Below, one piece after another: positions 21,320 through 46,958 of a stretch of 64,000 nucleotides of DNA. The stretch comes from Bremerella volcania. GTDB lineage: Bacteria > Planctomycetota > Planctomycetia > Pirellulales > Pirellulaceae. The translations under genes and the position numbers were made by a program. The stretch spans positions 868,001 through 932,000 of the forward strand of contig NZ_CP036289.1 of NCBI RefSeq assembly GCF_007748115.1. Reading direction: 5' to 3'. The notes under the pieces were generated by a model. The model was given only the letters and a program-made list of their open reading frames with translations, was not told the origin of the DNA and ran no database searches. Within the stretch, counting starts at the first letter, position 1, and every line of letters starts with the position of its first letter.

Positions 21320-21641
21320 TGCTTCGCTTGCAATAGAAACATATGGTTTACGGCGTTCGAATGACTCCAACCAATAAAGCCCCTTTTGGGCCTCTGACCA
21401 GCCTCAAATTCTTATTGAAGATTCAGTCTGTGTAAGATCAGTGTGCTGTAGCAGCGAAGGCGTCGCCGGCGCTTTCGATAAGTTTTCTTGGCGGGAGAAC
21501 GAAGTTAAGAAACTTTTGCCGGATCGCGTCAGCGACCTTGCTCGGGATTTTTCAAGGGCGCTTGCCAATCGAACCTGCGATTTGCCAGAAAAGGACAAAA
21601 GAAAAAGCCTCGCAAGTCGTTGATTTGCAAGGCCTTAGGAG
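21320..21641. other. Intergenic region left of the candidate element
   Basis: No supported gene is visible between the glycosyltransferase stop and the tRNA-like sequence at 21642. The only clear structure is a terminator-like hairpin on the minus strand at 21601-21633. That hairpin would fit as the original terminator of a tRNA gene transcribed leftwards. Confidence 0.5.
21601..21633 (-). terminator. Rho-independent terminator reading leftwards
   Basis: On the minus strand the sequence is gccttgcaa, a loop, ttgcgaggc, then TTTTTC. It lies directly downstream of the tRNA-3'-end-like fragment at 21642-21652 in that direction. No gene on the minus strand now ends here, so it looks like an orphaned tRNA terminator. 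Confidence 0.6.
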
Positions 21642-21652
21642 GTCGGGGTGAC
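21642..21652. other. Candidate left attachment site (tRNA-Pro 3'-end copy)
   Basis: The 11 bases gtcggggtgac are identical to 48786-48796, which on the minus strand is the 3' end of the tRNA-Pro acceptor stem plus discriminator base. The copy lies 200 bp before a large serine recombinase and just before an orphan terminator. This is what integration into a tRNA 3' end would leave. Large serine recombinases usually prefer other targets, so this remains a hypothesis. Confidence 0.45.
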
Positions 21653-21851
21653 CGGCGATTGACATTTCCTAACGACTTCGCGAGAACCAGCCTGCTTGGG
21701 CTTGTTTTGTCGCAAAGCATTGAGTTCACAGAGGATATGTTCTTTGGTACTTGCGAGTCCTAGACAACTCTTCAATAGCTAACGATAAAACTAATTCTCG
21801 CCCTCTCCGAGTAGGGGCCTTTGAGGTCTCTGGTCACCCGGAGTGTTGGTA

Positions 21852-23777
21852 ATGTCGATCACAAATGGCGTTGTTCCGCGAAATGGCATATTCTTTCGAG
21901 TCTTAATTATTGCTCGGATTAGCACGGAGCATCAGGATAAGCTTAGCCTTGAGGATCAGATTGAGCTCAGTCGAGGTTGGTGCCGTCAGCATCTCGATCA
22001 GCGTTTCGAAGAACAGATTATTCAAAGCCAGGGAAGCGGCGAACTGCTGGATCGTCAAGAGCTTCGAGACCTCGAGGATGCGATCTTGTCAGATGAAATT
22101 GATCTGATCATCGCTGAAGACTTAGGTCGTATCTGTCGCCGGAATGCCGCTGTAGCATTCCTTGAACTGGCGGAAGACCACGAGACACGTGTCGTTACCC
22201 TGAATGACAATTTGGATACTGAAAACGACGACTGGCGTTTCAAAGCCGGTTTCGCAACGATGCATCACGAGTTTTCGAATGCAGATACGGGCAAGCGAAT
22301 TCGGCGAACTCTTCGGAGCCGGCACATGCAGGGCTTGGTCGTCCAGTGTTTGCCATATGGATATATCAAACCGCATCCTGGGGCCTCCGATCAAGAAGTC
22401 ACTAAAGATCCTGCGGCCGAGCCAATTATCGAGGAGATTTTCTCTCGGCTCGAGAACGGAGTGAGCTATTCTGAAGTCGTTGATTGGTTGAACGCTAAGA
22501 AGGTTCCAACCGGGAAGTATGTCAGCTCGAATCGCTGGACTGTTTCAACGCTTAGAAACCTGGTTTATAACCCGCTGTTGAAGGGCGTTCGTGTTCGAAA
22601 TCGCGTGAAGTCAAAACGTATCAACAAGACAGGACGACGCAAATCGATCAAGGCAGCTCCGGATGAGTTGCTTGAGCGCCATTGCCCTCATCTGGCATTC
22701 GTCGAAGCTCATCGATACGACGCTCTGATTCGGTTCCTTGATAAAAAGAACGCGGCCTATCGGCGAAAGAAGATGGACGGCCGCGACCCACGAGCGATGG
22801 TTCCCAAAAAGCGAACTCGCTTTCCTGGTCAGCAAGTGTTTTGTGCCGTTTGTGGGCACCCGATGCGATGGGGCGGTCATGGTCAAGTCGATCGCTTGGT
22901 CTGTAAAGGCGCTAAGGAATATAAGTGTTGGCAAGGTGCAACGTTCGACGGGAATTTGGCTTCCGAGAAGATCCTTGCCGCCGTGCTTCAAGCTATCGAA
23001 GAACTACCAGACTTCGCCGAGAACCTTCAAAGTCAAATCATGGAAGAGTCGCAGACACTTACCGACTCACGGTACTCGGAGAAAAAGCAGATCCAAAAAA
23101 GGATCGATAGTCTCAATCGTGAAATGGCCAACCTGATTCAGTTCGTCAAGAGTGGGAATCACTCGGAAGTCTTGACGAGAGAGATCGCAGAAACGGAGCT
23201 TCAGTTGACCGAGGCGAAGTTTGAGCTGCAAGAGCTTGGTGAACGCTCATGCTTGGTTCCTAAGCTTCCTTCTTCCGATATGGTTCGCGAACTTGCCAAG
23301 GATGCCATCACGAAGCATCTCGATTGTCCTTACCGAATGAGCCGTGTGATGCGCCCGCTGATTCCGCGCATTGAGGCTCATCCGATGCGACTTTGCGTTG
23401 GTGGATCGGTTCTCATTCGAGCTAAATTTCAGATGACATTGTGTCACTTGATTCCTGGGATGAAGGATTTTTCCGTGGCGCGAGAAGCCATGACACGGAC
23501 GATCGAGGTGGATCTCTTTGAGCCGGTCCAGCGCGAGTTGTTCCGTGAACAGGTTGTCAAGCTTCGTGAAACGGGCATGTATCAAAGGGATATCGCTGCC
23601 CACCTGGGTATCACGCAGCCTGCGGTCCAAAATGCATTGAAACTGCAGGGTGTGATGGACGCCTCAGGACTGAAAGATCCTTACGTTCCGGTGACGGAAG
23701 CCCCAACTGATTTGGGCCGTATGCGACGTCACCGGCATTCTCGATTCGAGTTTCAGCAATATGATCCTGGTAGCTAA
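21852..23777 (+). CDS. Large serine recombinase
   Basis: This protein of about 641 residues starts at ATG 21852, with CCGGAG upstream; GTG 21843 would add three residues. The N-terminal resolvase domain shows the catalytic serine in ARISTEHQ, followed by LSLEDQIE and an EDLGRICRR segment. The middle carries the recombinase domain (about 150-260) and a zinc ribbon (CAVCGHPMRW ... CKGAKEYKC). A coiled-coil (about 395-470) and a C-terminal helix-turn-helix (YQRDIAAHLGITQPAVQNAL) follow. These enzymes integrate and excise phages and integrative elements by double-strand exchange at short att sites. It is the first gene after the candidate attachment site and probably mobilises the downstream cassette. 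Confidence 0.92.
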   Translation: MSITNGVVPRNGIFFRVLIIARISTEHQDKLSLEDQIELSRGWCRQHLDQRFEEQIIQSQGSGELLDRQELRDLEDAILSDEIDLIIAEDLGRICRRNAAVAFLELAEDHETRVVTLNDNLDTENDDWRFKAGFATMHHEFSNADTGKRIRRTLRSRHMQGLVVQCLPYGYIKPHPGASDQEVTKDPAAEPIIEEIFSRLENGVSYSEVVDWLNAKKVPTGKYVSSNRWTVSTLRNLVYNPLLKGVRVRNRVKSKRINKTGRRKSIKAAPDELLERHCPHLAFVEAHRYDALIRFLDKKNAAYRRKKMDGRDPRAMVPKKRTRFPGQQVFCAVCGHPMRWGGHGQVDRLVCKGAKEYKCWQGATFDGNLASEKILAAVLQAIEELPDFAENLQSQIMEESQTLTDSRYSEKKQIQKRIDSLNREMANLIQFVKSGNHSEVLTREIAETELQLTEAKFELQELGERSCLVPKLPSSDMVRELAKDAITKHLDCPYRMSRVMRPLIPRIEAHPMRLCVGGSVLIRAKFQMTLCHLIPGMKDFSVAREAMTRTIEVDLFEPVQRELFREQVVKLRETGMYQRDIAAHLGITQPAVQNALKLQGVMDASGLKDPYVPVTEAPTDLGRMRRHRHSRFEFQQYDPGS

Positions 23778-23820
23778 GCATGGCTTTGTTGATGGCCCCA
23801 GCGCCATCCGACTACCTTCG

Positions 23821-23851
23821 GCCCATGTCCTAATTGGTCATGGGCTTTTTC
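23821..23851 (+). terminator. Rho-independent terminator after the recombinase
   Basis: The stem gcccatg / catgggc (23821-23827 with 23839-23845) is followed by TTTTTC. It lies about 45 bases after the recombinase stop and separates it from the small-gene cassette. Confidence 0.75.
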
Positions 23852-23881
23852 GTGCGCCGATCCCAAATAAGGAACTCAATT

Positions 23882-24064
23882 ATGCCCGCTAAAGCGGATT
23901 CATATTCCAAAGAACCTTTCATTGAACAAGTTGCACGATCACAGCATGAGTTCATAAGGCTTCTCGCAAGATGCATTGCGAAGCGACTTCTGCGGGAAGC
24001 TGAATCGGACGCCAGTAACCAGATAAGAGCTAAAAAAACGTCCAATTCGTGTCATAAGACCTGA
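23882..24064 (+). CDS. Small conserved-looking hypothetical protein
   Basis: The gene encodes 60 residues starting MPAKADSYSKEPFIEQ, with AAGGAACT ahead of ATG 23882. The sequence is basic and helical, with a central FIRLLARCIAKRLLRE helix. No family was recognised. It opens the tightly spaced cassette that runs to the DUF1257/Ycf46-like genes, and codon structure and a good start site support it as real. Confidence 0.55.
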   Translation: MPAKADSYSKEPFIEQVARSQHEFIRLLARCIAKRLLREAESDASNQIRAKKTSNSCHKT

Positions 24065-24126
24065 GGAGGATTTAGCCCTAGGCTTTCTAATTTGCCCCAT
24101 TTGTCAGGAGGAAAGGAGTTTCATTC

Positions 24127-24279
24127 ATGTCCAGTTTGGTCATTGCTTTGACAACGATCGCATTACTTTTCGCGATCGTAGCGCTCATTCGAGAAAGACG
24201 GCTCGTTATCGCGCTTCGTCAAATTCTTCGCCGTCTTGTGGAGCGTTTGAAGAACGATGAAACACACCATCGTCACTAG
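24127..24279 (+). CDS. Small single-pass membrane protein
   Basis: A strong ribosome-binding site (AAGGAG, eight bases away) precedes ATG 24127. The 50-residue product has one N-terminal hydrophobic segment (VIALTTIALLFAIVALI) followed by a very basic tail (RERRLVIALRQILRRLVERL). This fits an inner-membrane protein with the tail in the cytoplasm. It overlaps the start of the next gene by 23 bases, so the two are co-translated. Function unknown. Confidence 0.6.
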   Translation: MSSLVIALTTIALLFAIVALIRERRLVIALRQILRRLVERLKNDETHHRH

Positions 24280-24826
24280 CCTACTGCCTTTGCTCGTTCT
24301 ATCGCTGTTCTTCGGGTGCGATGAAGACGAGTATAGAAAATTGGCCGAAATGGCCGAGCGTCACAATCTTAGCCAGGAAGAGCAACGTCGACTGATGGTC
24401 GAGCTTCAAAAGGAAGTTGCGAATGGCTCGAATGATCTGGTTACCGCAGATGCCAATGCTCGCGAAGCATGGGTTGCGCTTCATCGCGAAGTCCAACAGG
24501 AACGAACTGAGATTGGACAACAACGTGATCGTTTGGAGGAGGATCGGAAAGCGCTGGCAACGCAGCGACAGCATGATTCACTCATCGCCGCGACCATGCT
24601 GACGTGCAGCAGTGTTGTCGTCTGCACGTTGCCACTTGTCTTGTGTTGGTACTTACTGAGTCGGCCTCAAGGCACTGGTGATGACACTGAAATCGCTGAA
24701 GTGTTTCTGAATGATGTCGTCGCGAGCCAACCATTGTTGCTTCCAAGACTAGGTCCCTCATCTCGCAATCAGAGTCAGAAACTCGATTCGCCAGATTTGA
24801 ATTCCTCAACAGAAACAGCAGATTAA
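24257..24826 (+). CDS. Lipoprotein-like protein with coiled coil and membrane segment
   Basis: The gene encodes 189 residues. The N-terminus is a signal sequence ending in a lipobox-like LSLFFGC (Cys21). A charged coiled-coil follows (about 25-110, rich in Glu/Gln/Arg), then a second hydrophobic segment (about 112-135, VVVCTLPLVLCWYLL) and a polar tail. No domain family was recognised. It is the third gene of the compact cassette and could tether the downstream cytoplasmic ATPase to the membrane, but that is only inference from position. Confidence 0.6.
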   Translation: MKHTIVTSLLPLLVLSLFFGCDEDEYRKLAEMAERHNLSQEEQRRLMVELQKEVANGSNDLVTADANAREAWVALHREVQQERTEIGQQRDRLEEDRKALATQRQHDSLIAATMLTCSSVVVCTLPLVLCWYLLSRPQGTGDDTEIAEVFLNDVVASQPLLLPRLGPSSRNQSQKLDSPDLNSSTETAD

Positions 24827-24837
24827 GGAGCAAGAGT

Positions 24838-25206
24838 ATGTCACATGTTGTCCAGGTAAAAACCCGAGTCAAAGACGTTGCCGCATTGGGACTCGCCACC
24901 CAGCGTCTGCAACTGGCAGAACCAACCTATGGCACTGCTAACTTCTTCGATGGTTCCGCGACGGGATGGCGCGTGTCACTTCCCGGGTGGCGTTACGACG
25001 CCGTATTCGATGTTGAGAGTGGAAAAGTTGATTTTGACGACTACGGAGGTCGCTGGGGTGAGCGAGCGGAATTGAACCGGTTGATCCAGGCGTATGGCGT
25101 CGAAAAAGCAAAGCTAGAAGCTCGTAAAAAGGGGTACTCAACTTCGGAGCGGCAGCTAGAAGATGGAAGCATCCGACTGTCAATTCAGGTAGGAGGTACA
25201 GCATGA
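24838..25206 (+). CDS. DUF1257 (Ycf35-like) protein
   Basis: ATG 24838 has AAGGAG ahead of it. The 122-residue product has the features of DUF1257/Ycf35: an N-terminal SHVVQVKTRVKD strand, a W-x-V-x-LPGW centre, VFDVESGKVDFDDYGG-x-WG, and a C-terminal helix with LNRLIQAYGVEKAK. In plastids and cyanobacteria, Ycf35 is a conserved protein of unknown activity. Its stop overlaps the next start (ATGA), so the pair is translationally coupled. It is followed by DUF2997 and a Ycf46-like ATPase, a trio that occurs together elsewhere. Confidence 0.82.
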   Translation: MSHVVQVKTRVKDVAALGLATQRLQLAEPTYGTANFFDGSATGWRVSLPGWRYDAVFDVESGKVDFDDYGGRWGERAELNRLIQAYGVEKAKLEARKKGYSTSERQLEDGSIRLSIQVGGTA

Positions 25207-25394
25207 GAACAATCGAGATCACATTCAATTCTGAAGGTGATTCCAAGATCGAAACACTTGGATTCGTGGGACGCACATGCCGGGATGCAAGCGCGTTCCT
25301 GGAAGAAGCCATCGGAGAGCGTACCGAAACTCTCGTCAAGCCAGAGTTTTACTCTCAAACGATAACGTCCCATCAACAGCAACAATCGAACTGA
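25203..25394 (+). CDS. DUF2997 family protein
   Basis: The gene encodes 63 residues, overlapping the DUF1257 gene by four bases. The features of DUF2997 are present: an N-terminal IEITFNSEGDSKIETLGFVG strand pair, then a CRDASAFLEEAIGE helix. DUF2997 proteins are small, of unknown activity, and usually encoded between a DUF1257 and an AAA ATPase gene, exactly as here. It is probably cytoplasmic and may form a complex with its neighbours. Confidence 0.8.
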   Translation: MRTIEITFNSEGDSKIETLGFVGRTCRDASAFLEEAIGERTETLVKPEFYSQTITSHQQQQSN

Positions 25395-25425
25395 TCGATC
25401 ACTGTCACAAAGGAGCGAACCGATT

Positions 25426-26904
25426 ATGTCGCTTACGGAACAATTGTCGGAGCACGTCGAGGCATGCTTCACGGGGATATGGCTTCAAAGCCATGAACCT
25501 GATGAAGTCTTAACGGAAATTGGCCGGCTTTGTCGACAGCAGGATTGGAGGTTGTCGACATGGAATATCAATCAAGGTATCAGGGGAACTGAAGCTGGCT
25601 CAGGTATTGTCGCCACGGATCCACTAGGAGTGATCCAGGCGATCCCATCGCTGGCAGTGCCAGGAGGGACGTCGATCGTTGTCTTGTCGAACTTTCATTT
25701 CTTCGTTCGAGGGGCAGAAGTTGTCCAGGCTCTTTCGGATCAAGTTTTGCTGGGAAAACGAGATCGCACGTTTGTCATAATACTTTCCCCAGTTTGTGAG
25801 ATTCCAGTCGAGTTGGAGAAGATGTTCGTCCAGATCGAGCATTCCCTACCTCAACGTGATCAATTGGCTGAAATTGCTCGTGAGGTCGCCGTAGAGGAAG
25901 GGGAACTACCTGAAAGTGAAGCATTCGAAGAGGTATTAGATGCCGCATCCGGTCTGACGTGTTATCAAGCTGAATCAGCGTTCAGTCTGTCGATCGTGCA
26001 GGAAGGAAGGCTGACGCCTGAGACTCTCTGGGCACAAAAAGGTCGGGAACTTAAAAAGTTGGCTGGACTGTCGCTACATCGAGGGCAGGAAGACTTCAAT
26101 TCGTTGGGAGGTCTCGATGCTCTGAAACGATTCACGAAAAGAATCTTGGAGCAGGCTGATCGAGGAGACCCATTACGCCAGCCACGGGGCGTCTTGCTTT
26201 TGTCGCCGCCTGGAGCTGGAAAGAGTCAGTTTTGTCGATGCCTCGGCAGGGAAACAAACCGCCCAACTCTGATCTTAGATATTGGTAGTTTGTTCGGCTC
26301 GCTACTCGGAGAAACCGAACGAAGAATCCGGCAGGCCTTGCAGGCGATTGATGCCATGGGGCCAAGCGTTGTCATGCTTGATGAAATTGAAAAGAGCTTC
26401 TCCGGGGTAGGGGGGAATGGCCAGAGTGACTCGGGCGTAGCCGCAAGGGCGTTTGGGACATTCCTGACGTGGATGAACGATCGCTCATCAAACAGTTTCG
26501 TGGTTTGCACTAGCAATTCGATCGAACGACTGCCACCGGAGTTTGCGCGATCGGAGCGATTCGATGCAGTATTCTTTGTCGACTTACCGAATCGAGAGGA
26601 GAAAGATCGCATCTGGCAACTTTACAAGGAGATGTTTCAAATTGATGGCGATCAACCCTTGCCAGATGACCGAGATTGGACCGGTGCCGAAATCAAATCG
26701 GCTTGTCGCCTGGCCTGCCTATTGCGCGTATCGCTCTCGGAAGCTGCTCAATACGTCGTCCCCGTGGCAAAAACGTCAGCCGAGTCGATACGGAAATTGA
26801 GAGAATTTGCCAGTGGTCGATGTCTTAGTGCCAGCCAGGATGGTATCTACCACTTCGAAGAATCCTCTCCGCGGAGGCGTTCTGCAAACCCACAGTTGAA
26901 TTAG
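25426..26904 (+). CDS. Ycf46-like AAA ATPase
   Basis: This 492-residue cytoplasmic protein starts at ATG 25426. The N-terminal half matches Ycf46 (FHFFVRGAEVVQALSDQ; an ELE-x-MF-x-QIEHSLPQRDQL stretch). The C-terminal half is a single AAA module, with Walker A PPGAGKS (Lys266), Walker B VMLDEIE (Asp319/Glu320), sensor 1 VVCTSN and an Arg finger in ARSERFD, all intact. Ycf46 is an ancient ATPase of cyanobacteria and plastids, linked to photosynthesis in cyanobacteria and otherwise poorly understood. It lies 31 bases after DUF2997, in a cassette led by a recombinase, and planctomycetes are not photosynthetic. A role in element maintenance or defence is possible but unproven. Confidence 0.85.
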   Translation: MSLTEQLSEHVEACFTGIWLQSHEPDEVLTEIGRLCRQQDWRLSTWNINQGIRGTEAGSGIVATDPLGVIQAIPSLAVPGGTSIVVLSNFHFFVRGAEVVQALSDQVLLGKRDRTFVIILSPVCEIPVELEKMFVQIEHSLPQRDQLAEIAREVAVEEGELPESEAFEEVLDAASGLTCYQAESAFSLSIVQEGRLTPETLWAQKGRELKKLAGLSLHRGQEDFNSLGGLDALKRFTKRILEQADRGDPLRQPRGVLLLSPPGAGKSQFCRCLGRETNRPTLILDIGSLFGSLLGETERRIRQALQAIDAMGPSVVMLDEIEKSFSGVGGNGQSDSGVAARAFGTFLTWMNDRSSNSFVVCTSNSIERLPPEFARSERFDAVFFVDLPNREEKDRIWQLYKEMFQIDGDQPLPDDRDWTGAEIKSACRLACLLRVSLSEAAQYVVPVAKTSAESIRKLREFASGRCLSASQDGIYHFEESSPRRRSANPQLN

Positions 26905-26933
26905 CAATTCATTGGACTCAACTGATTATTCGC

Positions 26934-26975
26934 AGAGCCTCCTCATCATTTTCGATGGGGAGGCTCTTTCTTTTT
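26934..26975 (+). terminator. Rho-independent terminator between ATPase and next gene
   Basis: The stem agagcctcc / ggaggctct brackets a loop of about 15 bases and is followed by TTTCTTTTT. It lies 30 bases after the ATPase stop and 18 bases before the next start, so the last three genes may be controlled separately or by read-through. Confidence 0.75.
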
Positions 26976-26992
26976 ATGGCAGGAATTCATTC

Positions 26993-27943
26993 ATGAGTAC
27001 AAGTACGATTGAAAGTCACATGGCCACCGTGCCCCATCAGAGTGCATCTCAACGCCTACGCAGGAAAATGGTGCCAATGCGACTGTCCTATTCTTGGTTC
27101 GGCACCCGCAAGTCGCTCAGTCGCGAGCAGAAGAGTCAGGCAGCCAGCGCTTTTGGGGCCGAAGGAAAATTTCTGTGCGCTGGAAAAAAGCTGATCGATA
27201 CCAATGATCCATCGTTCCGCGCGGTTACTTCGATTCGTGGTCAAGCGACAACCTATTTCCATGGAATATCGCTTGCATATCCAGAAGCCGGTGTTCGCTT
27301 GGTCCGTGAGGACGATGTGGCACGGGTGAACACTCGTTTGGCCGCGTATCGACAGGATCTGTCAGACGCGGTGCATCAACTTGAGATGCAGTACGATACT
27401 TTGAGAGACGCGGCCCGGGAACGACTCGGCAGTCTCTTCGATGAAAAAGACTATCCGAATCACTTGGCTGGCCTTTTTCAGATGACGTGGGATCATCCTA
27501 ACATTGAGCCCCCCAACTATCTGCGACAGCTAGACCCGGAACTGTATGAACAGGAATGCCTTCGCGTGCAGGCACGGTTTGACGAAGCAGTTCAGCTTGC
27601 TGAGGCCGGCTTCATGCAAGAACTCTCAGATCTAGTGGCCCATCTGTCGGAACGTCTGAGCGGTGAGTCTGATGGGCGGCCAAAAATTTTCCGTGATAGT
27701 GCCGTTACCAACTTGAGCGAGTTCTTTGAACGATTTCGGCGACTCAACATCCAATCCAACGGAGAATTGGATGCGCTCGTTGACCGAGCCAAACAAGTTG
27801 TCCAAGGTGTTGAGCCACAAACGCTGCGCGATCATGCGGATGTCCGGCGTCAAATCTCAGATCAGTTGGCCGAAGTAACTTCATCGCTTGATCAGCTTCT
27901 TATCGATCGACCGCGGCGGAATATCTTGCGGCGACCCAAGTAA
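26993..27943 (+). CDS. Conserved-looking helical protein of unknown function
   Basis: The start is ATG 26993, with AGGA eight bases upstream; the frame is open further up, but that part covers the terminator. The 316-residue product is soluble. It begins with a basic motif (RRKMVPMRLSYSWFGTRKSL), has a central helical stretch with VRLVREDDVARVNTRL, and a C-terminal part predicted to form long helices (LSDLVAHLSERLSG ... LDALVDRAKQVVQG). The layout recalls DUF3150-like proteins of mobile elements, but this could not be confirmed. It is the largest unexplained gene of the cassette and may be a partner or substrate of the ATPase. Confidence 0.7.
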   Translation: MSTSTIESHMATVPHQSASQRLRRKMVPMRLSYSWFGTRKSLSREQKSQAASAFGAEGKFLCAGKKLIDTNDPSFRAVTSIRGQATTYFHGISLAYPEAGVRLVREDDVARVNTRLAAYRQDLSDAVHQLEMQYDTLRDAARERLGSLFDEKDYPNHLAGLFQMTWDHPNIEPPNYLRQLDPELYEQECLRVQARFDEAVQLAEAGFMQELSDLVAHLSERLSGESDGRPKIFRDSAVTNLSEFFERFRRLNIQSNGELDALVDRAKQVVQGVEPQTLRDHADVRRQISDQLAEVTSSLDQLLIDRPRRNILRRPK

Positions 27944-27954
27944 GGATTTCTACC

Positions 27955-28206
27955 ATGGAATTGTTGATCGAAGTGTCGGGTTGTATCCGCTGCGTCTACG
28001 ATGAACAGATTTCGCTCGCTTCATTAGGAGAGGTCACGATTCAACGAGGTTCTCATGTAGAACCCACAACTGAGGGAAATTGGATAGCGGATCTCACGCC
28101 AGTCGACGGTCCCGTTCTAGGGCCATTTTCCGAAAGATCGCAGGCAATTGCCGCAGAGGTCCGTTGGCTTCAACGGTATTGGCTGCTTTCGAATCGCCAA
28201 GAATAG
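27955..28206 (+). CDS. Small conserved-looking protein
   Basis: The gene encodes 83 residues, with AAGGA ahead of ATG 27955 and only 11 bases after the preceding stop. The sequence is beta-rich at first (IQRGSHVEPTTEGNWIADL, then GPVLGPFSER) and ends in a helix (AIAAEVRWLQRYWLL). The pattern IxRGSxVEP-xxxGxWxADL is compact enough to be a family signature, but no named family was recognised. Probably part of the same operon as the 316-residue protein. Confidence 0.65.
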   Translation: MELLIEVSGCIRCVYDEQISLASLGEVTIQRGSHVEPTTEGNWIADLTPVDGPVLGPFSERSQAIAAEVRWLQRYWLLSNRQE

Positions 28207-28308
28207 TCGGTATCTACTTCGCCAAGAACGCGAGGAGAGTGTTTCTAAATACGCGATCGCCTCGTTCTGGGGCGATCGATTTTACCTGGTAATGAAAGGT
28301 AATGATCG

Positions 28309-28488
28309 ATGTACCCAATTGAATTTGATGAGGCTATATCTAAGGCGACAGGTGAAAGCCTATGCGTGATTCGCCATCGAGGATTTACGTTGGCGGATCC
28401 TGTGGAGGTTAATTTTGATCCTGAACCTGATGACCATGAACCGTCCTTTATTGACTGGGATGAAATGGAGAGGGAAAGAATGTATTAG
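28309..28488 (+). CDS. Small acidic hypothetical protein
   Basis: The gene encodes 59 residues (start MYPIEFDEAISKATG), preceded by GAAAGG. The product is acidic, with a repeated Asp/Glu-Pro cluster (NFDPEPDDHEP) and an IDWDEMERER end. It is the last gene of the cassette, followed 19 bases later by a strong terminator. No family recognised. Confidence 0.6.
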   Translation: MYPIEFDEAISKATGESLCVIRHRGFTLADPVEVNFDPEPDDHEPSFIDWDEMERERMY

Positions 28489-28507
28489 CTTTTTCAGATT
28501 TTCTTTG

Positions 28508-28540
28508 CGCCTGGCCCAAGGGGCTGGGCGTCTTTTTTTT
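28508..28540 (+). terminator. Strong rho-independent terminator closing the cassette
   Basis: A 10-bp stem with two wobble pairs (cgcctggccc / gggctgggcg, three-base loop) is followed by TCTTTTTTTT. It marks the end of the recombinase-ATPase cassette. Confidence 0.85.
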
Positions 28541-28569
28541 AGCTATCAGCTGATGGAGTGACGGTTATA

Positions 28570-28622
28570 CTGCCCTGTCCTCATGAATGAAGCCATGTCT
28601 TAAGTAATAGTCTTCAAGGATT
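28570..28622. mobile_element. Decayed end of an IS3-family element
   Basis: These bases align with the left end of the intact IS3 element (38560-38606). The match includes ctgccc, gaatgaa, cca and a 15-base identity tagtcttcaaggatt (28608-28622 and 38592-38606). No transposase reading frame remains. It abuts the end of the sulfatase gene, so both sides of the sulfatase operon carry related IS ends. Confidence 0.55.
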
Positions 28623-28638
28623 GAAGTGTAGCCAAGAA

Positions 28639-37305: not shown

Positions 37306-38554
37306 TTATTTGGAGCGAAATGTTTCGCTGAGAATGACATCCTGAAGAAGCGACTGGATTGGATATCCTGCCTCTGCATTACGCTGCAAAATTTCTCCAA
37401 TGATCGGACAATCCGCAAATGAGATCCCGGCACCGGTCGCAAATACTAGGAATCGCTCGGTCAGATTTCGAGCAAGCTGCTCTTGTTGACCACACAAGTA
37501 CGTGCGGAACTGGTAAATATCGTGGAACCGAAATCCATCTTGGGTGACCCCGGACGCATCTACAGGTAAGCCGCGTTTGTACTTCACATCTCGGAGTGCC
37601 ACTTTGATATCGACTTCGTCTCCCTCGCCAATACTTCGGTAGTGATCGCGCCACTTACCCATGACGTCAAAGCTCTCTAGCGCGAACCCAGGCGGGTCGA
37701 TCGCGGCATGACAGCTAGCACATGATTCCAATTGGCTGTGTTTGGCAAGTTGCTCGCGAACCGTTACAGCACCACGCGTATCAGGCTCAATCGAACCCGC
37801 ACCCGGCGGCGGTGGAGAGGGTGGTGTTCCCAGAATTCTGTCCATGACCCAGACACCCCGCAGGACGGGAGATGTCGTCAAACCGTTTGCCGTAACCTTC
37901 ATCACGCTAGACTGTGTTAGAAGGCCCCCTCGTAAAGAATCCGGCGGCAAATTGACTCGTCGAATTGACAATCCTTTCACTTCGTCGATGCCGTATAACT
38001 CTGCAAGTCGTTCGTTGATCAACACAAAGTCTGCATCGACGACCGTGCGGACCGGTAGGTTCTGCCGAATCATCTCTTCGAGCGTCGCTTCTGTTTCCGC
38101 AACGCACGAATCAACGAGGTGATTGTCACAGAAGTACTCTGGGAATAGGAATCGATCCGGGGACGTGTCGTGAACATGGCGAAGGTCCAGCCACTGGCCA
38201 GCAAAGTCGCTGATAAACCTCTTTGATTTTGGATCTCGAAGCATTCGGGAAAATTGCAGCTTAAGCCCCTTATCGGTCAACAGTTCTCCCGTTTGTGCAG
38301 ACGCCATCAGTTCGTCATCGGGTATGCTACGCCATAGTAGAAAAGAAAGTCGACTGGCTAAGGCTTCCCCATCAAGTCGGCCAGGCATCTCTTGGAAATA
38401 GAGGAAATCAGGCGAACACAGGACGGCCTTGTAAGCTAATCGCATAGCATCCTGAAAACACGCTCGGCGATCGATGGCCTCGACAGCGAACGCTAGACAA
38501 CGTTGTACTTCTGATTCATCCGGAGTGCGTCGATATGCTCGAGCCATGAAGCTC
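37306..38554 (-). pseudogene. 5'-truncated DUF1592/DUF1588/DUF1585 cytochrome-type protein
   Basis: The remaining part of about 415 residues holds, in order, the RAYRRTP segment, DUF1592 (FLLWRSIPDDEL), DUF1588 (RGGLLTQSSVMKVTANG, TTSPVLRG), a CASCH haem-binding motif and DUF1585 (ERFLVFATG). Full-length members have several hundred more N-terminal residues with further haem motifs. The IS3 element ends at 38555 and cuts the gene; native sequence starts at 38554 and the missing part is not found on the other side of the IS. A start at ATG 38547 could give a short product. The IS transposase genes read in the same direction and could drive this operon. Confidence 0.85.
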
Positions 38555-38583
38555 TGACCTGCCCCCACGAATGAAACCAGTCT

Positions 38584-39447
38584 TTAAGTTGTAGTCTTCA
38601 AGGATTCTTCCAGGGGAAGGTGCTGGAGCGTAGCGGAAGCAGCTTCCCCTGGAAGAATTGCCTCCGGTGCCGGTGGACGGTACCCCAGCGAACTGTGCGG
38701 GCGTACCGTGTTGTACTCGACTCGCCACCGTTCGATCAACACTTTTGCCTCCAGCAGCGTGTCGAAGATCTCTCGATCGAGTAGTTCATCTCGCAGCTTC
38801 CCGTTGAAGGATTCGATGTAGCCATTCTCCCACGGGCTGCCAGGTTCGATGTACAGGGTGTTCACCTCGACTCGCTCCAGCCAGTCACGGACCTTAGTGG
38901 CGGTGAACTCTGAGCCGTTGTCGCTGCGAATGAAGTCTGGCACGCCACGGCGAACGAACAGGTCGCTAAGACGCTCCAAGACATCCTCGCTGGTCAGTTG
39001 ACGAGCCACATCGATCGCCAAGCACTCGCGAGTATACTCGTTGATCAGCGTCAGCATACGGAAGGCTCGACCATCGTGCGTTCGGTGATGCACGAAGTCA
39101 TAGCTCCAGACCTCATCACGATGACTCGGCCGCAGGCGAACGCACGAACCATCATTAAGCCACAGGCGACGTCGTTTCGGCTGCCTTTTTGGTACTTTCA
39201 AGCCCTCGCGACGCCATAAGCGTTCGATGCGTTTATGGTTCACCTGCCAACCTTTCCGGCGTAACATCTCAGTGATTCGCCGATAGCCATAACGGCCATA
39301 CTGTTCAGCAAGTTCAATCATCTCCCGGACTAGGCGAGGCTCGTCGTCGGGGACCCAGCGAACACGGCGCTGAGTGGAACGAGGCTGTCCCAGCACCCGG
39401 CAGGCCCTCCGTTCTGATACTCGCTCGCGTCCCAAAGTATCTCGCAC
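38584..39447 (-). CDS. IS3 transposase OrfB
   Basis: The GTG/ATG-type start is at 39447; the frame continues upstream to the end of orfA, so the active enzyme is probably made by frameshifting from orfA. The product of about 287 residues has the HTH_21 region and the rve integrase core with the DDE triad, seen as HRTHDGRAF (first Asp region), IRSDNGSEF and ENGYIESFNGKLRDE (the Glu of the triad). The gene ends 29 bases inside the left terminal repeat. Confidence 0.9.
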   Translation of the reverse strand: MRDTLGRERVSERRACRVLGQPRSTQRRVRWVPDDEPRLVREMIELAEQYGRYGYRRITEMLRRKGWQVNHKRIERLWRREGLKVPKRQPKRRRLWLNDGSCVRLRPSHRDEVWSYDFVHHRTHDGRAFRMLTLINEYTRECLAIDVARQLTSEDVLERLSDLFVRRGVPDFIRSDNGSEFTATKVRDWLERVEVNTLYIEPGSPWENGYIESFNGKLRDELLDREIFDTLLEAKVLIERWRVEYNTVRPHSSLGYRPPAPEAILPGEAASATLQHLPLEESLKTTT

Positions 39448-41730: not shown

Positions 41731-42480
41731 TCAAGAAGGAGAGACACAGTTATTCAGTCTTTCTCGCCGCTTTTCCCAATCAGGCATCAGGGCTTTAAGC
41801 AATCGATAGAAGCCCGGACCGTGATTGTGTTCTTGCAAGTGACAAATTTCGTGGACAATCACGTACTCGATGCACTGCTTAGGGGCGATTACCAGATCTG
41901 GATTTAGCAAGATATGGCCTTCTTTGGTACAACTCCCCCAGCGATTCTTCATTCGGCGAATCTCGAAACGGTCTGCCTTGATTCCATGTCGCTCAACCTT
42001 TGTGGCCATGTCGTCGAATAACTCTTGGAAGACCGCTTCCGCACGTTTTCGGAACCAACTGACAACAAGCGTCTTGATGCGTGTCTTTTTCGATGGATCA
42101 ACGAGAGTGACGTTGATCTGCCCACGTGACATCTTGACGGTTTCCTCGTCCCCTTGATGGACTCGCAACCGATACTGCCGTCCCAAGTACCGATGCGACT
42201 CGCCACTGACATAGCGTCGAGGGGGAATCGTTGGCAGATAGTTTTCAAAGAATCGCTGCTGTTGGACGATCCATGCCGCTCGTTTGTGCATCTTTTCATC
42301 GATGGCGTTATCGTCCGCACCTTTTGGGGCAGTCACAACAACCGACAAATCGGGATGCACATCAATCGCTAACGTCTTACGTGCAGAGTATAGAAGCTGG
42401 TATTCAATCCGCTTGCGTCCATATTGGATCGAGAGTCGTCGGGCATGGCCATTGTGCTCAGAGTCGCCATTGAGCGTCAT
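41731..42480 (-). CDS. YgjP/M48-type metallopeptidase next to type I R-M
   Basis: The gene encodes 249 residues, overlapping hsdR by four bases (ATGA). The zinc motif is HEICH (about 212-216), with CHLQEHNHGPGFY completing the YgjP/SprT-like pattern. The N-terminal half is beta-rich (VHPDLSVVVTAPKGA). This family is often encoded within type I restriction-modification operons; its role there is unknown, perhaps turnover of restriction subunits. It is the last gene of the leftward hsd operon. Confidence 0.88.
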   Translation of the reverse strand: MTLNGDSEHNGHARRLSIQYGRKRIEYQLLYSARKTLAIDVHPDLSVVVTAPKGADDNAIDEKMHKRAAWIVQQQRFFENYLPTIPPRRYVSGESHRYLGRQYRLRVHQGDEETVKMSRGQINVTLVDPSKKTRIKTLVVSWFRKRAEAVFQELFDDMATKVERHGIKADRFEIRRMKNRWGSCTKEGHILLNPDLVIAPKQCIEYVIVHEICHLQEHNHGPGFYRLLKALMPDWEKRRERLNNCVSPS

Positions 42481-45400
42481 GGCTGCGTCTCCCGTCGTTT
42501 GGCGACCCGCATGATTCCGTCAAGTATCTCATCGATGTCCTCGCTCGATAGGGGCAGGTCATAACGTCCTTTGGCGGAGAACATCAAATCGTCGAGATCG
42601 TTCATCATGGCATGGACCACATCACGGTTGTCCGTCCAGTCCCGAATCTTCCTTTCCTCAACGATCTTCTTCGCCTTCAACGCCGTCTCCGCAGCAATGC
42701 CAGCAAGATCCGTCCGACCATCCTCCGAGACCTTCTCAAAACCTTCCTGTAACAATCGGAAGTACGCTTTGGCCTCAGGATCACTTCTTAGCTCGGCAGG
42801 CACTTTGGACGATCCCTGTTCTTTGGCTTCATTCCATGCCTCAAACATCTTCTTGAGGTATTCTTCCTCACTCATCCGCTGTTCAAGGTATGCCTTAATC
42901 GCTTCGTCGATAACCTCAGACAGCTTTTGGTACAGAACGGGGTCTTCCTCCATCTTCTCCGTGCAGGTCTTCTTGACCCGTGAAGCGATGAAGTCCGCTT
43001 TCGCCGCCGTCCCCTCGATCTCGTCCAGTTCTTCTTCGAGATTATCCACTTCAAAGATATTTACTGGCTTGACGATCCGCTTCACTTCATCGGCACCGAT
43101 GTACTTATCGACCATGTTGCGAATCTGGTCTTCGTACTCGCTGTAATCGACAGCCTCGTTGTATCGCTGCTTTACCGCCGCACGCAGATTACGGAAATAC
43201 TTCATGTCCTGCACATAGCGTTGCACGGTCGCTTTCGGTGTCTCCTCATGAAACTTGGCTGAAGACATCGCCAGTTGCAGCGTCTTCGAGAACTCGTTGA
43301 GCGTATCGTAGAAATCCTGCCTCACATCTTCAGGACGAAGGTGCTGCTGCATCGCTTCTAAGTCCTGCTTATTCGGGACTTCGTTGAAGACTGCCCAAAC
43401 ATTGGTGTGGCGTTCACTCAGTTTGGAAATCTCATCCTCAAGATCGGTAAACGTCCCTTCGATGTCTTCCTCGTCGAAGTCCCCCAAGGCATCGTAAGTC
43501 TTTACAGCTTCATCGAGTGCCCCAAAGATACCTCGATAATCAACGACCAGCCCAAAGTCTTTGCCATCAAATAAACGGTTCACACGGGCAATAGCTTGCA
43601 GAATGTTGTGGTCTCGCAATCGCTTGTCGATGTACAACACTGTATTACAAGGTGCATCAAACCCGGTCAGCAGTTTGTCCACGCAGATGATAATTTCCGG
43701 CTTCGGTGTCTTCTCGAAGTCATCGATGATTCGTTCGAGGTATTTCTTCTCGGAACCGAATTCGTCCATCATCTTCTTCCAGAATTGTTGAATCTCTGGA
43801 ATGTCTTCCTCTTCAATCGTTTCGTTGTCTTCCCGTGTATCAGGTGGCGAAATAATCACACGAGTTGAGACTGCCCGGTTAGGGTGTTCCTTGCCGATCT
43901 CCTCAAATAGCAGATGATACTTGAGTGCCATCGCTTTGCTGCTGACGGCAAACTGTCCTTTGAACTTCGTTCCTTTGAAGGTCTCACAAAAGTGGGTGGC
44001 AATATCAAAGGCGATCTCGTACAGTCGCTCCGAAGTCTTCGTCAGTTCCTCTTCCCGACGAAACTTCTTCTTGAGATCGGCTTTCTGCTCGTCGGACAAA
44101 TCCTTGGTGATTCGATCAAACCACTTGTCGATGGCCTTCTGGTCGCCATGCATTTCCGACATCCGGCCTTCGTATAAGATTGGTGTGACTGCCTTGTCCT
44201 CGACCGCCTTCCGCATCGGGTAGGTGTGAATAAAGCCGCCGAACTTGGTAGCGGTACTCTTTTCCTGTTTGAGCAGCGGCGTGCCGGTAAAACCGATGTA
44301 ACAGGCATTCGGGAAAACCTGCTTCATTTTGGCATGAGCCAGCCCGTATTGGCTGCGATGACTTTCATCTACCAGCACGAAGACATTGTTACTCTCGTCC
44401 CGTAGTTCATGAGTCGATGCAGCCGACTCAAACTTGTCGATAATCGTCGTGATGATGTCCACTTTACCTTGCGACACCAATTGAACCAGATGGCTACCGC
44501 TATTGGCCCGCTCAACTGATTTGCGACAGGCAAGGAACGTCTTCCAGATCTGCCGGTCGAGGTCAACTCGGTCGGTAACGATTACCACCTTAGGATTCTT
44601 AATCGTCGGTTCCAGCGACAACGCCTTGGCAAGCATCACCATTGTCAGGCTCTTGCCGCTGCCGGTCGTGTGCCAGATCACGCCGCCCGTTCGCTGCTGG
44701 TCTCCCTTCGACTTAGTGACTCTCGTCAGCGTTTCCCCGATGGCGAAATACTGCTGATAGCGAGCCACCTTTTTGATACTCTTGTCGAAGACGATGTACC
44801 GATACGCCATTTCCAACAGGCGTTCCGGTCGAAACAGACAGTACAGCAGCCGATCCTGTGGAGATGGCAACCGCTGCCCTGATGCAAGAATCTCCTGCAT
44901 CTTGGCCGCAACCAACGGCTTTCTGCTCTCGTACATTCGGGCCAATTGTTCCGCCGTTAATGGCGTGTTGACTAGCTTGGCAAGTTTCACGTCTAGATCG
45001 TCGGCGTGTTCTTCCTTCCAAGCAGACCAGAACTTCTTGGGTGTGCCGGTCGTGGCGTACTTGCCGTGGTTCTGGCAGATCGATCCCAGAAGTTGAGAGC
45101 AGACGAACAGACCGGGAATCTCGTCCTGCCGCTGGTTGCGAAGATGTTGGCTGATGCCATCCTCAACCGCATCCCGTTGATCCGGTCGTTTGCACTCGAT
45201 GACGGCCAAAGGAATCCCATTGACGAATAGTACAATGTCCGGTCGCCGTAGTTCGTGCGAAGCGGTCCGCTCGACCTCGAACTCATCGGCGATGTGGTAG
45301 ACGTTATTCTCCGGGTGTTCCCAATCGATGTACTGAAGCGTGTAGCTCCGCTTGTTTCCGTCGATGGTCTGCTCAATCGCTTTCCCCAGCGTCAGCAGAT

Positions 45401-45692
45401 CGAATACCTGCTCATTCGTCTTCACCAAACCATCGAAGGGGATGTTCGTTAGGGCATCAACGGCAGTCTTGAGGTTGCTCTCGGTGAAATCGTGCGTCTG
45501 TCCTTTGAAGGTGATCTGGTTCAGCTTACGGAGTTGCACGGTGAGAATCGCTTCCAACACAACTCGGCTGCGTTTGCCGCCCCGCAGGTCGAGTGATTCG
45601 GTCGGCGTGAGATATTGGTATCCAACTGCCTGCAAAAGTTGTAACGCAGGCAAATGCGAGACCAAATCTTCGAGGAACTCCGATACTGCCAT
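42477..45692 (-). CDS. hsdR: Type I restriction enzyme, R subunit
   Basis: The gene encodes 1,071 residues. An N-terminal PD-(D/E)XK nuclease (PDIVLFVNGIPLAVIECKRP, about 150-170) is followed by a superfamily-2 helicase: Walker A TGSGKS (about 347), VDESHRSQYG (about 440), and TGFDAPCN with later ARVNRLF motifs. It cleaves and translocates unmodified DNA as part of the R2M2S complex. It overlaps the metallopeptidase gene and follows hsdS with a three-base gap. All motifs look intact. Confidence 0.95.
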   Translation of the reverse strand: MAVSEFLEDLVSHLPALQLLQAVGYQYLTPTESLDLRGGKRSRVVLEAILTVQLRKLNQITFKGQTHDFTESNLKTAVDALTNIPFDGLVKTNEQVFDLLTLGKAIEQTIDGNKRSYTLQYIDWEHPENNVYHIADEFEVERTASHELRRPDIVLFVNGIPLAVIECKRPDQRDAVEDGISQHLRNQRQDEIPGLFVCSQLLGSICQNHGKYATTGTPKKFWSAWKEEHADDLDVKLAKLVNTPLTAEQLARMYESRKPLVAAKMQEILASGQRLPSPQDRLLYCLFRPERLLEMAYRYIVFDKSIKKVARYQQYFAIGETLTRVTKSKGDQQRTGGVIWHTTGSGKSLTMVMLAKALSLEPTIKNPKVVIVTDRVDLDRQIWKTFLACRKSVERANSGSHLVQLVSQGKVDIITTIIDKFESAASTHELRDESNNVFVLVDESHRSQYGLAHAKMKQVFPNACYIGFTGTPLLKQEKSTATKFGGFIHTYPMRKAVEDKAVTPILYEGRMSEMHGDQKAIDKWFDRITKDLSDEQKADLKKKFRREEELTKTSERLYEIAFDIATHFCETFKGTKFKGQFAVSSKAMALKYHLLFEEIGKEHPNRAVSTRVIISPPDTREDNETIEEEDIPEIQQFWKKMMDEFGSEKKYLERIIDDFEKTPKPEIIICVDKLLTGFDAPCNTVLYIDKRLRDHNILQAIARVNRLFDGKDFGLVVDYRGIFGALDEAVKTYDALGDFDEEDIEGTFTDLEDEISKLSERHTNVWAVFNEVPNKQDLEAMQQHLRPEDVRQDFYDTLNEFSKTLQLAMSSAKFHEETPKATVQRYVQDMKYFRNLRAAVKQRYNEAVDYSEYEDQIRNMVDKYIGADEVKRIVKPVNIFEVDNLEEELDEIEGTAAKADFIASRVKKTCTEKMEEDPVLYQKLSEVIDEAIKAYLEQRMSEEEYLKKMFEAWNEAKEQGSSKVPAELRSDPEAKAYFRLLQEGFEKVSEDGRTDLAGIAAETALKAKKIVEERKIRDWTDNRDVVHAMMNDLDDLMFSAKGRYDLPLSSEDIDEILDGIMRVAKRRETQP

Positions 45693-45695
45693 GCG

Positions 45696-46958
45696 TCACC
45701 CATTCACCGTATTGGCATCCACGTTGACCCGGACTTTGCCGGTAAGAAGCTGCTGCATCAGCCCCTTCTTTTGTTCTTTTAGGTATTTTAGTCTGCTTTG
45801 GTCGTACTTCAGTTCTCGAACTGCGGTACGCAAGACCTCAACGATCCGCCGCTGTTCCTCAATGCTGGGTGGAACAAACACCTTTCGCTTGAGGAGTTCG
45901 CTTGCGGAGAAAAGCAGGCGAAGTCGTTCTGCAAAGAATCCATTGCAAGCCAACAAGATTTGGTGTCGAAACCACGAAGTTTCAGAAATGAATCCCAGAA
46001 ACGAAATGTCAAACGCATCCTCATTTTTCGCTATCAGAACCGTGTACTGATCCGAGATATAAGTGTTGTGAAACTTTTTAGGGACAAGTCCCATCGCACC
46101 GTATGCTGCCTGAATGTTGGAGATCAGAAAGTCATTTTGTTCGATAGTAAATAGCTTCTTCACCTTTATCTGATGCCCATACGCAGGCTCTCGGAAAAAC
46201 ATTCCTTTCGAGTGTCGTCGAATGCTCGCAAGCTTGTACAACTGTTCGTCGTCCCATGAAATTGGACGCTTGACGGACTTAGTTAACTTTCCAAGCTCTA
46301 CCCATTTCCAAGATCTCCCTTCAAACTCCTTGAATCGCACCTTGCCCGTGAGAAGCTGCTGCATGAGAGCTTGTTTGCGTTTCTGCTTGGCGGCGATCAG
46401 CTTCTCGGTCAATTCAATCGCCCGATCCCACGTCGAAAGAATGGCGGCGATCTTTTGCTGTTCGGGAATGGGCGGTTGAAGAATGTCCAGTTTTCGAAAG
46501 TATGGCAATCCAATCGTTTTGATAGTTGAACCTACGGCGACTCTTTCGAACTCCTTCTTTGTCAATTGGAGCCAGTAATAGAGAAAGGTGTTATCCAAGT
46601 GCGGTCCGCAGTTCCACACTACAAAGTGTTGGCTGACAGCCATTGGCTCAGTTGTAATGGCACTCTTGCCAACACCTGCATCTCTCGAAACGATGACGAC
46701 TCCGGGTGGATGAAGCACTGCCGAGGAGTTTGCGATTCCTGCCTCGGAAATTTCATCTTCCGTATCGCTGATCCAACGTCGATCAAGTTTGTCGGAATCT
46801 TTCAGTGATACCCATTTAATTCCACCGCCGTAATACTCAGGGAATCTTTTGTCTGGCGTGTGTCCTGTGCCTCTCTTTGCAAGATCATCAAGAAGGCTGA
46901 TCTTCCAACCGTCTGGGACTCTGAACCGTCCGTCTTGTTGAAGTCGTTTGAGAAACAT
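45696..46958 (-). CDS. hsdS: Type I restriction-modification specificity subunit
   Basis: The gene encodes 420 residues. The typical two-target-recognition-domain layout is visible: a first domain with KWVSLKDSDKLD, a central conserved helix (AAILSTWDRAIELTEKLI), a second domain (KSVKRPISWDDEQLY) and a C-terminal helix (IVEVLRTAVRELKYDQSRLK), with the QQLLTGKVR motif repeated after each helix. It sets the DNA sequence recognised by the complex. It overlaps hsdM by one base. Confidence 0.93.
   Translation of the reverse strand: MFLKRLQQDGRFRVPDGWKISLLDDLAKRGTGHTPDKRFPEYYGGGIKWVSLKDSDKLDRRWISDTEDEISEAGIANSSAVLHPPGVVIVSRDAGVGKSAITTEPMAVSQHFVVWNCGPHLDNTFLYYWLQLTKKEFERVAVGSTIKTIGLPYFRKLDILQPPIPEQQKIAAILSTWDRAIELTEKLIAAKQKRKQALMQQLLTGKVRFKEFEGRSWKWVELGKLTKSVKRPISWDDEQLYKLASIRRHSKGMFFREPAYGHQIKVKKLFTIEQNDFLISNIQAAYGAMGLVPKKFHNTYISDQYTVLIAKNEDAFDISFLGFISETSWFRHQILLACNGFFAERLRLLFSASELLKRKVFVPPSIEEQRRIVEVLRTAVRELKYDQSRLKYLKEQKKGLMQQLLTGKVRVNVDANTVNG

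Follow-up and report, generated by a model that had tools for sequence, protein, structure and literature searches.

A putative mobile element of Bremerella volcania with a conserved Ycf46-type ATPase operon, and its sister elements with ubiquitin-like or sliding-clamp genes

Genes of the Bremerella volcania element

We analyzed a stretch of 64,000 nucleotides from Bremerella volcania (hereafter, the window), in which a candidate element of approximately 6.9 kb carries a Ycf46-type AAA ATPase gene together with genes for DUF1257, DUF2997, and a DUF3150-like protein. Judged from the sequences of relatives, six of its genes are one conserved system with a patchy distribution, and the element, a unit with defined ends found at unrelated sites, looks mobile. 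The initial annotation had described a ten-gene, recombinase-led cassette with a Ycf46-like ATPase, DUF1257, and DUF2997 at 21852–28488, ending at a strong terminator. All ten open reading frames (ORFs) are intact there, a recombinase followed by nine closely spaced genes, and the terminator (stem 28507–28531, T8) stands after the last one. The features are listed below; other loci are given L numbers, and fractions refer to the 43 loci of set 1 (see the next section).

21611..28549, whole candidate element, ~6.9 kb
21611..21638, + strand, left-end motif CGCAAGT-N16-CTTAG, 211 bp 5' of the recombinase
21643..21744, + strand, conserved non-coding leader TCGGGGTGACCGGCGATTGACATTTCYTAACGACTT..., common to L037, L042, L063, and L064, 5' of recombinases
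21852..23777, + strand, large serine recombinase, 641 aa (Pfam Resolvase and Recombinase; PHROG integrase, 1.5e-51)
23882..24064, + strand, s60, small 60-aa protein (3/43 loci)
24127..24279, + strand, mem50, small membrane protein (9/43 loci)
24257..24826, + strand, lipoprotein-like coiled-coil protein with lipobox, coiled coil, and C-terminal transmembrane (TM) segment (11/43 loci)
24838..25206, + strand, DUF1257 (Ycf35-like; PF06868, 19.3 bits, below cut-off)
25203..25394, + strand, DUF2997 (PF11211, 38.7 bits)
25426..26904, + strand, Ycf46-type classic AAA ATPase (PF00004)
26934..26967, + strand, internal terminator-like hairpin in the gap between the AAA and DUF3150-like genes (by eye, other hairpin sequences occupy the same place in several relatives)
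26993..27943, + strand, DUF3150-like helical protein, 316 aa (remote homology to annotated DUF3150)
27955..28206, + strand, s83, small conserved protein with a GSHVEP...GPxLGPF motif (39/43 loci)
28254..28278, + strand, internal terminator-like hairpin in the gap between s83 and s59
28309..28488, + strand, s59, small conserved protein with an ATGE...IRRLGF motif (35/43 loci)
28507..28549, + strand, right end: terminator hairpin (stem 28507–28531), T8, and TTAGCTATCAG

The recombinase matches Resolvase (5e-14, 53 bits) and Recombinase (3e-11, 44 bits), both above the Pfam cut-offs, and its zinc ribbon scores 21.1 bits, below the cut-off of 25.3. The score of DUF2997 exceeds its gathering cut-off (24.1), confirming the call. 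That of DUF1257 stays under its threshold (22.2), and the assignment therefore rests on a homologue in L077, a protein annotated as DUF1257 with which the window protein shares 37% identity. The AAA protein matches PF00004 at 1.2e-22 and, over nearly its whole length, phrog_8638, a phage family of unknown function (2.7e-76). Its nearest NCBIfam models are CDC48-type classic AAA proteins, every one far under its cut-off; the best is the CDC48 subfamily (5e-18, 64.7 bits versus 802.65).

The 316-aa protein has no PF11348 match at E ≤ 1 in the Pfam search. However, tblastn connects it (E = 6e-34) with an annotated DUF3150 protein on a plasmid of Candidatus Manganitrophus (L077), which itself passes PF11348 (35.3 bits versus 24.9). 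The profile of the DUF3150-like family also finds the DUF3150 protein of Cupriavidus plasmid pMTS2 (L078) at 6e-28, a relative that scores 22.1 bits on PF11348, below the cut-off. On these sequence matches, the window protein appears to be a remote DUF3150 relative.

The leader is present in a single copy within its own genome. The two hairpins inside the operon possibly reflect segment-wise transcription or antitermination. In Rfam, a single sub-threshold match (SNORD67, E = 0.03) was taken as chance.

Conservation of the core and ends of the element

Relatives were collected with the AAA protein alone (E ≤ 1e-40) in 60 genomes, including that of the window. A match occurs in 25 genomes (57 rows, at most six per genome), and presence and absence are both seen inside one genus. 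Forty-three rows were taken as wide loci (set 1: the window, L007, L008, and L037–L076); the other 14 lie on short contigs or at a contig end, or are incomplete or weaker matches. An iterated profile search of six-frame ORFs detects DUF1257, DUF2997, and AAA in all 43 loci, the DUF3150-like protein and s83 in 39, and s59 in 35, followed by the recombinase (20), lipoprotein (11), membrane protein (9), and s60 (3). When only the + strand is counted and overlapping ORFs are sorted, the numbers are 43 for AAA, 35 each for DUF1257, DUF2997, and s59, 38 for the DUF3150-like protein, and 31 for s83. The occurrence of a recombinase homologue in just 20 loci means that "recombinase-led" is not a general trait, contrary to the initial annotation. 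Scattering of DUF1257, DUF2997, and the Ycf46-like gene without the rest of the cassette, which would have spoken against a joint system in planctomycetes, is not seen in the loci tested.

The labelled core order DUF1257-DUF2997-AAA-DUF3150-like-s83-s59 is unbroken in 43/43 loci, with all six genes labelled in 19. Because the order is the same throughout, the core is more than a chance neighborhood. Unrelated genes that merely happen to lie behind a recombinase would account for the inconstancy of the recombinase, s60, membrane protein, and lipoprotein genes; nevertheless, the order kept across genera and the relatives in other phyla refute this explanation for the six core genes, and for the locus as a whole we consider it scarcely credible.

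A second set was obtained by scanning named genomes with an alignment of the DUF3150-like protein. Set 2 comprises the best 80 of 198 relatives and partly overlaps set 1; by title or genus name we take its members to be planctomycetes, except Emcibacter (L146) and two entries named "bacterium" (L180 and L184). In an even draw over the phylum, the DUF3150-like protein occurs in 14/294 genomes, including that of the window.

Some loci deviate in gene content. An extra gene with the motif VVEGxNDIEFL, which we assume to be TOPRIM-like though Pfam does not confirm it, lies between DUF2997 and AAA in 12/43 loci. L038, L043, and L049 carry a four-gene cargo 5' of DUF1257, including a trypsin-like protease with a GYF domain. 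L060 and L061 are decayed copies with the AAA gene in pieces, in a host genome with several copies.

The extent of the element was delimited by comparison with L037, in which window positions 21597–28550 recur at 86–88% nucleotide identity between unrelated flanks, in which blastn gives no longer match. This recurrence of a ~6.9 kb unit at an unrelated site, together with the constant core order, bears out the single conserved and portable system proposed in the initial annotation. The homology stops within a few bases of a hairpin, a T run, and the 8-mer TTAGCTAT. It also ends near TTAGCTAT for L044, L050, and L052 (exact 8-mer) and for L039 and L051 (8-mer variants), and in the L038/L043/L049 group it continues ~70 bp beyond. 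A strict right-end pattern lies 3' of the DUF3150-like gene in 12/38 set-1 and 14/79 set-2 segments, and is absent from the opposite strand in set 1 and from the controls (20 regions, 780,040 strand bases). The 8-mer itself is found downstream 15 and 17 times (sets 1 and 2, respectively) in direct and 1 and 0 times in inverted orientation; upstream of AAA it occurs four times direct and six times inverted, with none in the controls. One strict match is inverted, in L146 (591,785 bases). The exact TTTTAGCTATYRG at the right end of the element is the only one in the 6.5 Mb genome.

The left end is less certain than the right, and its motif is post hoc, being derived partly from the same loci. 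The pattern CG[TC]?CAAGT-N13-16-YTTAG gives 11 matches in 11 loci, all 5' of the labelled AAA gene, and none on the other strand or in the control bases. Three matches stand before a recombinase (window 21611, L037, and L064), seven before a DUF1257 or lipoprotein gene, and one (L044) before an unlabelled reverse ORF. An inverted ATAGCTAA at 21775 was rejected as the left end, since the L037 homology extends ~180 bp further left.

In Emcibacter L146, three direct TTAGCTAT sites (1975, 4346, and 12359) are arranged as in a cassette array. They delimit a two-gene unit and a unit of the core plus a ubiquitin-like protein (Ubl) gene, and two of the sites lie left of the core. The repeated sites on the left suggest tandem units.

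Searches with the flanks revealed no empty site. On the right, the sulfatase flank of the window is kept in genome G008, though homology begins only at 28630, preceded by a repeated stretch at 28569–28622 that is like an insertion sequence (IS) end. On the left, eight further genomes of the genus offer no counterpart apart from a single short local match. One host flank of L037 is kept in G006 and G007 up to L037 13804–13825, and the other is not conserved.

Optional modules and relatives on other replicons

The region following s59 distinguishes the sister elements, in which the core runs into one of two modules: module U (Ubl-E2-JAB-E1) or module C (beta clamp and nuclease). The B. volcania genome holds three forms: bare in the window, C in L007, and U in L008. 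Module U is also found in L059. The right-end signature follows s59 in bare elements and a clamp, PD-(D/E)XK, or E1 gene in others, so the modules seem to be contained within one element together with the core.

The components of module U are recognized to different degrees. The Ubl is ThiS-like, ~74 aa (Pfam ThiS, 21.9 bits versus a cut-off of 22.5), with a fixed KIEG near the end and then a variable tail in 28/28 labelled sequences. The E2 candidate (340 aa) has an invariant HPHV-x5-C in 23/23 alignment rows, which in our view much resembles the HPN...C motif of E2 enzymes, and a long C-terminal cysteine-rich region. JAB matches Prok-JAB with 23.1 bits (cut-off 25), and E1 matches ThiF clearly (1e-22, 80.8 bits versus 28.1). 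In module C, the PDB matches of the clamp profile are all beta sliding clamps (25/25 at E ≤ 1, best 9.8e-9). The remaining parts are a small protein of no recognized kind and a PD-(D/E)XK nuclease, the L008 copy of which scores 110 bits versus a cut-off of 22; the nuclease gene also lies 3' of module U in some loci.

The two modules tend to replace each other. In set 1, E1 is found in 7, JAB in 5, and the clamp in 10 loci, and E1 and the clamp are never together. Profile matches in the 80 loci of set 2 number 29 for Ubl, 28 for E2, and 26 each for JAB, E1, and the clamp, where JAB accompanies E1 in 25/26 loci and E1 and the clamp coexist in three; the labels remaining after the overlap filter give JAB only 3. 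At least 1.5 kb of downstream sequence is available for 70 loci of set 2; taking the clamp or the small protein as a sign of module C, 24 of them are labelled U only, 25 C only, 5 both, and 16 neither (Fisher p = 0.0005, kinship ignored). The alternation gives p = 0.004 with at least 4 kb downstream (n = 51) and p = 0.03 with at least 6 kb (n = 44), kinship likewise ignored.

Relatives on plasmids extend the context of the core. The trio of AAA, DUF1257, and DUF2997 is present on 5/8 plasmids viewed for AAA, those of Manganitrophus, Geminocystis, Paenibacillus, Nostoc, and Thermovibrio (the last by profiles, with DUF1257 and DUF2997 on the opposite strand); a Paenarthrobacter plasmid has AAA with DUF2997. 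The link to photosynthesis suggested by the Ycf names in the initial annotation is thus misleading, since the plasmids with the trio belong to Nitrospirota, Aquificota, and Bacillota as well as Cyanobacteriota. A housekeeping role as for cyanobacterial Ycf46 and Ycf35 (redox or CO2-related), acquired by planctomycetes, would agree with the 4Fe-4S proteins that adjoin the trio on the Paenibacillus plasmid and AAA with DUF2997 on the Paenarthrobacter plasmid, and with the DUF2997-ycf35-fed7 cluster of Synechocystis described in PMC4284462. We nonetheless regard it as very improbable: the element is mobile-looking, multi-copy, and patchy, no Fe-S family matches any of the ten window genes (Pfam), and the partners in sister elements are DNA- and Ubl-related.

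Plasmids also link DUF3150-type genes to PRTRC genes, which lie within ~12 kb of each other on 4/5 plasmids viewed, out of 42 matching plasmid records. On the Manganitrophus plasmid, the consecutive genes AAA-DUF1257-DUF2997-DUF3150-s83 are followed at a distance of ~7–12 kb by ParB and PRTRC C, B, and A. Plasmids of Cupriavidus, Paraburkholderia, and Burkholderia have a full PRTRC set and, after 5–6 kb, an ATP-binding protein, a DUF3150-type protein, and a VWA protein; on a Simplicispira plasmid the VWA partner is present with no PRTRC in view.

These ties to ParB/PRTRC plasmids could also point to a role in maintenance or addiction, by which integrative elements and plasmids are stabilized or partitioned and in which the lipoprotein and the small proteins would act like toxin and antitoxin. 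The lipobox plus C-terminal TM segment and the terminator-bounded unit fit such a role. A precedent is SGI1, in which an AAA protein of the SpoVK/Ycf46/Vps4 kind is an antitoxin to a protease, according to the consulted part of PMC10954446. However, the lipoprotein and membrane protein genes, in 11/43 and 9/43 loci, are not core, and no ParA/ParB or protease family is matched among the ten genes (Pfam), and we consider this role rather unlikely. The lipoprotein family (window 24257–24826) combines a lipobox and a coiled coil with a C-terminal tail and a TM segment that is conserved; an alignment of 23 sequences has the TM segment in 23/23 and the lipobox pattern in 17/23. The topology resembles that of unimolecular spanins.

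Relatives occur on viral sequences as well. Seven virus-classed contigs encode a DUF3150-like relative, with an AAA match in 7/7 and DUF1257 in four (L207 and L209–L211). Neighbors include a D12-type methylase, AAA_24, and PD-(D/E)XK in L209 and RecT in L212. Some of these contigs may not be phages, given a phage-type integrase in L209 and a replication-type AAA_25 protein in L211. The cultured phage Tunturi_3 encodes a related AAA and a DUF3150-like protein.

A possible remodelling role and related systems

Our tentative explanation, inferred from gene content and held at somewhat below even chances, is that the core encodes an ATP-driven machine, similar to Cdc48, that remodels DNA-bound proteins for the benefit of the element. 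The AAA ring would use DUF1257 and DUF2997 as small adaptors, and the DUF3150-like helical protein would be its substrate-handling partner. The complex may then act like a Cdc48/p97-type segregase, pulling or remodelling proteins on DNA or the replisome for the replication, recombination, or establishment of the element. Where present, the Ubl module would mark targets, and machinery on the DNA side would come from the clamp and PD-(D/E)XK genes; the bare copy in the window may draw on the Ubl (L008) and clamp (L007) copies in its own genome. A segregase on the replisome is suggested by the kinship of the ATPase to CDC48 and by the way in which clamp and Ubl modules alternate, and the strongest hint for the mechanism is the company of DUF3150-type proteins with ATPase and Ubl pathways in separate lineages. 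The DNA-metabolism genes beside relatives on virus-classed contigs (RecT in L212, AAA_24 and PD-(D/E)XK in L209) also count in its favor. A more specific version, which we think improbable, is a bacterial counterpart of the Cdc48-ubiquitin-PCNA axis, in which a segregase with the DUF3150-like partner acts on the replisome and the clamp is controlled in two alternative ways: by the element's own beta clamp with nuclease, or by Ubl-E2-JAB-E1 modifying a host protein, possibly the host clamp.

Several observations weigh against the remodeller. The window element itself is of the bare form, with no Ubl, E2, JAB, or E1 among its ten genes (Pfam), and 16/70 set-2 loci likewise have neither module. 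In the fold search against the PDB, 0/211 matches of the AlphaFold model of the DUF3150-like protein (predicted local distance difference test, pLDDT, 79.6) reach E ≤ 0.001. The same is true of the E2 candidate (pLDDT 83.0, predicted template modelling score 0.56), with 0/288 at this threshold: approximately 23 of the best 50 matches are E2/UEV structures by title, each insignificant (E ≥ 0.3), and an FYVE-type zinc domain has a probability of 0.99 at E = 0.45. In other phyla the trio is accompanied by ferredoxin or a 4Fe-4S protein and has no annotated DUF3150 or Ubl partner. Plasmids of Treponema and Calditerrivibrio have a related AAA without annotated DUF1257 or DUF2997, and two phage or satellite records viewed for AAA have no annotated partners. 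The flank searches gave no clean empty insertion site, so mobility is deduced from relocation. The PD-(D/E)XK genes suit defence equally.

Defence against phages or plasmids is the main and a serious rival, which we judge only slightly less likely than the remodeller. The ATPase complex would sense or remodel invader proteins, and Ubl conjugation, nuclease, and membrane proteins would be the effectors. Mobile Ubl-E2-E1-JAB operons and nucleases are known in defence, and the patchy, mobile-looking, multi-copy distribution fits. Nine large genes near the core in five set-1 loci (chosen by eye) have matches with E ≤ 1e-20 in the defence families Hma, type I restriction-modification (R-M), PglW, DruE, and MTase II/mads3, and blast relatives of two of the nine occur in L040 and L061. 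A defence-type gene lies near the core in 7/43 loci, and the defence role raised in the initial annotation is a possibility. In contrast, a sampled PADLOC tally, suggestive only, gives no strong enrichment of neighbors over controls: 99 families (95/168 neighbor ORFs) versus 64 (95/161 control ORFs), counting ORFs of at least 300 aa and excluding those above 1500 aa. Among the first 25 families of each list, none is matched by more than two members; DISARM/Hma/BREX-type helicases are on the neighbor list only and kinase-type families mainly on the control list. The proteins of the window element have no PADLOC match except the AAA domain and a marginal recombinase coiled coil (ZorA2, E = 0.006), and the relatives on a phage and on virus-classed contigs also argue against defence.

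The system has partial counterparts among known ones. Operon type 6d of Iyer et al. (2006) comprises Ubl, E2, JAB, and E1 with a helical protein; "AAA" and "ParB" do not occur in the main text of the paper (PMC1779556). Judging from its parts, we read PRTRC as type 6d. Sister elements resemble it in that Ubl, E2, JAB, and E1 are distinct genes arranged in this sequence, and PRTRC genes lie near DUF3150-type genes on plasmids. Unlike type 6d, the window copy has none of the four genes and no ParB match, the sister E2 has the long cysteine-rich region, and the module is joined to the Ycf46/DUF1257/DUF2997 core. The L008 E1 is far under the cut-off of the PRTRC model TIGR03736 (25.7 bits versus 144.75), and no PRTRC model is among the matches of L008 JAB, E2, and Ubl. 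In the Burkholderiales triad (annotation of L078, L222, and L223), the DUF3150-type protein likewise adjoins an ATP-binding protein near PRTRC; however, the ATP-binding protein of L078 is unmatched by the AAA profile at E ≤ 1e-3, and a VWA protein replaces DUF1257 and DUF2997.

The cyanobacterial Ycf46, Ycf35, and DUF2997 belong to the same three families. However, the Nostoc and Geminocystis plasmids with the trio have no annotated DUF3150, s83, or s59, and the Synechocystis chromosome copy is accompanied by ferredoxin, as the consulted part of PMC4284462 indicates. IetAS shares AAA similarity (PADLOC IetA, 6.6e-15), but the match is limited to AAA residues 252–429 and its protease has no family counterpart among the ten genes.

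Both the individual parts and the notion of mobile Ubl operons are known; what is apparently undescribed is the core system and the way it is combined with Ubl or clamp modules: judged mostly from listings, the open-licence PMC literature searched contains no description of this combination, and DUF3150 is not named in it. To our knowledge, no molecular function has been assigned to DUF1257, DUF2997, or DUF3150, and the function of Ycf46 is unclear. All four gain a testable joint context here, namely a conserved, mobile-looking operon with recognizable ends and ties to ubiquitin-like conjugation and sliding clamps. A functional link could reveal the targets of the ubiquitin-like PRTRC/6d systems of plasmids and provide bacteria in which AAA remodelling directed by ubiquitin is easily studied. 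Further elements could be found by means of the right-end signature.

Additional features were observed around the element and its relatives. On the Treponema plasmid (L215), the related AAA lies between a 4Fe-4S protein and phage baseplate V protein, and perhaps is the ATPase of a contractile injection system. On the Geminocystis plasmid (L214), the trio adjoins RloB, an ATP-binding protein, zeta toxin, and DUF4007. In the window, the 54-bp repeat at 28569–28622, which looks like an IS-end remnant, separates the right end of the element from the sulfatase gene; it recurs at 38554–38606 and elsewhere in its own and related genomes. The restriction operon that the initial annotation placed on the same element is a true type I R-M operon (R, S, and M; 42477–48490) that starts 14 kb beyond the right end and thus lies outside. 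It adjoins a tRNA-Pro gene (48786–48860), as a separate island.

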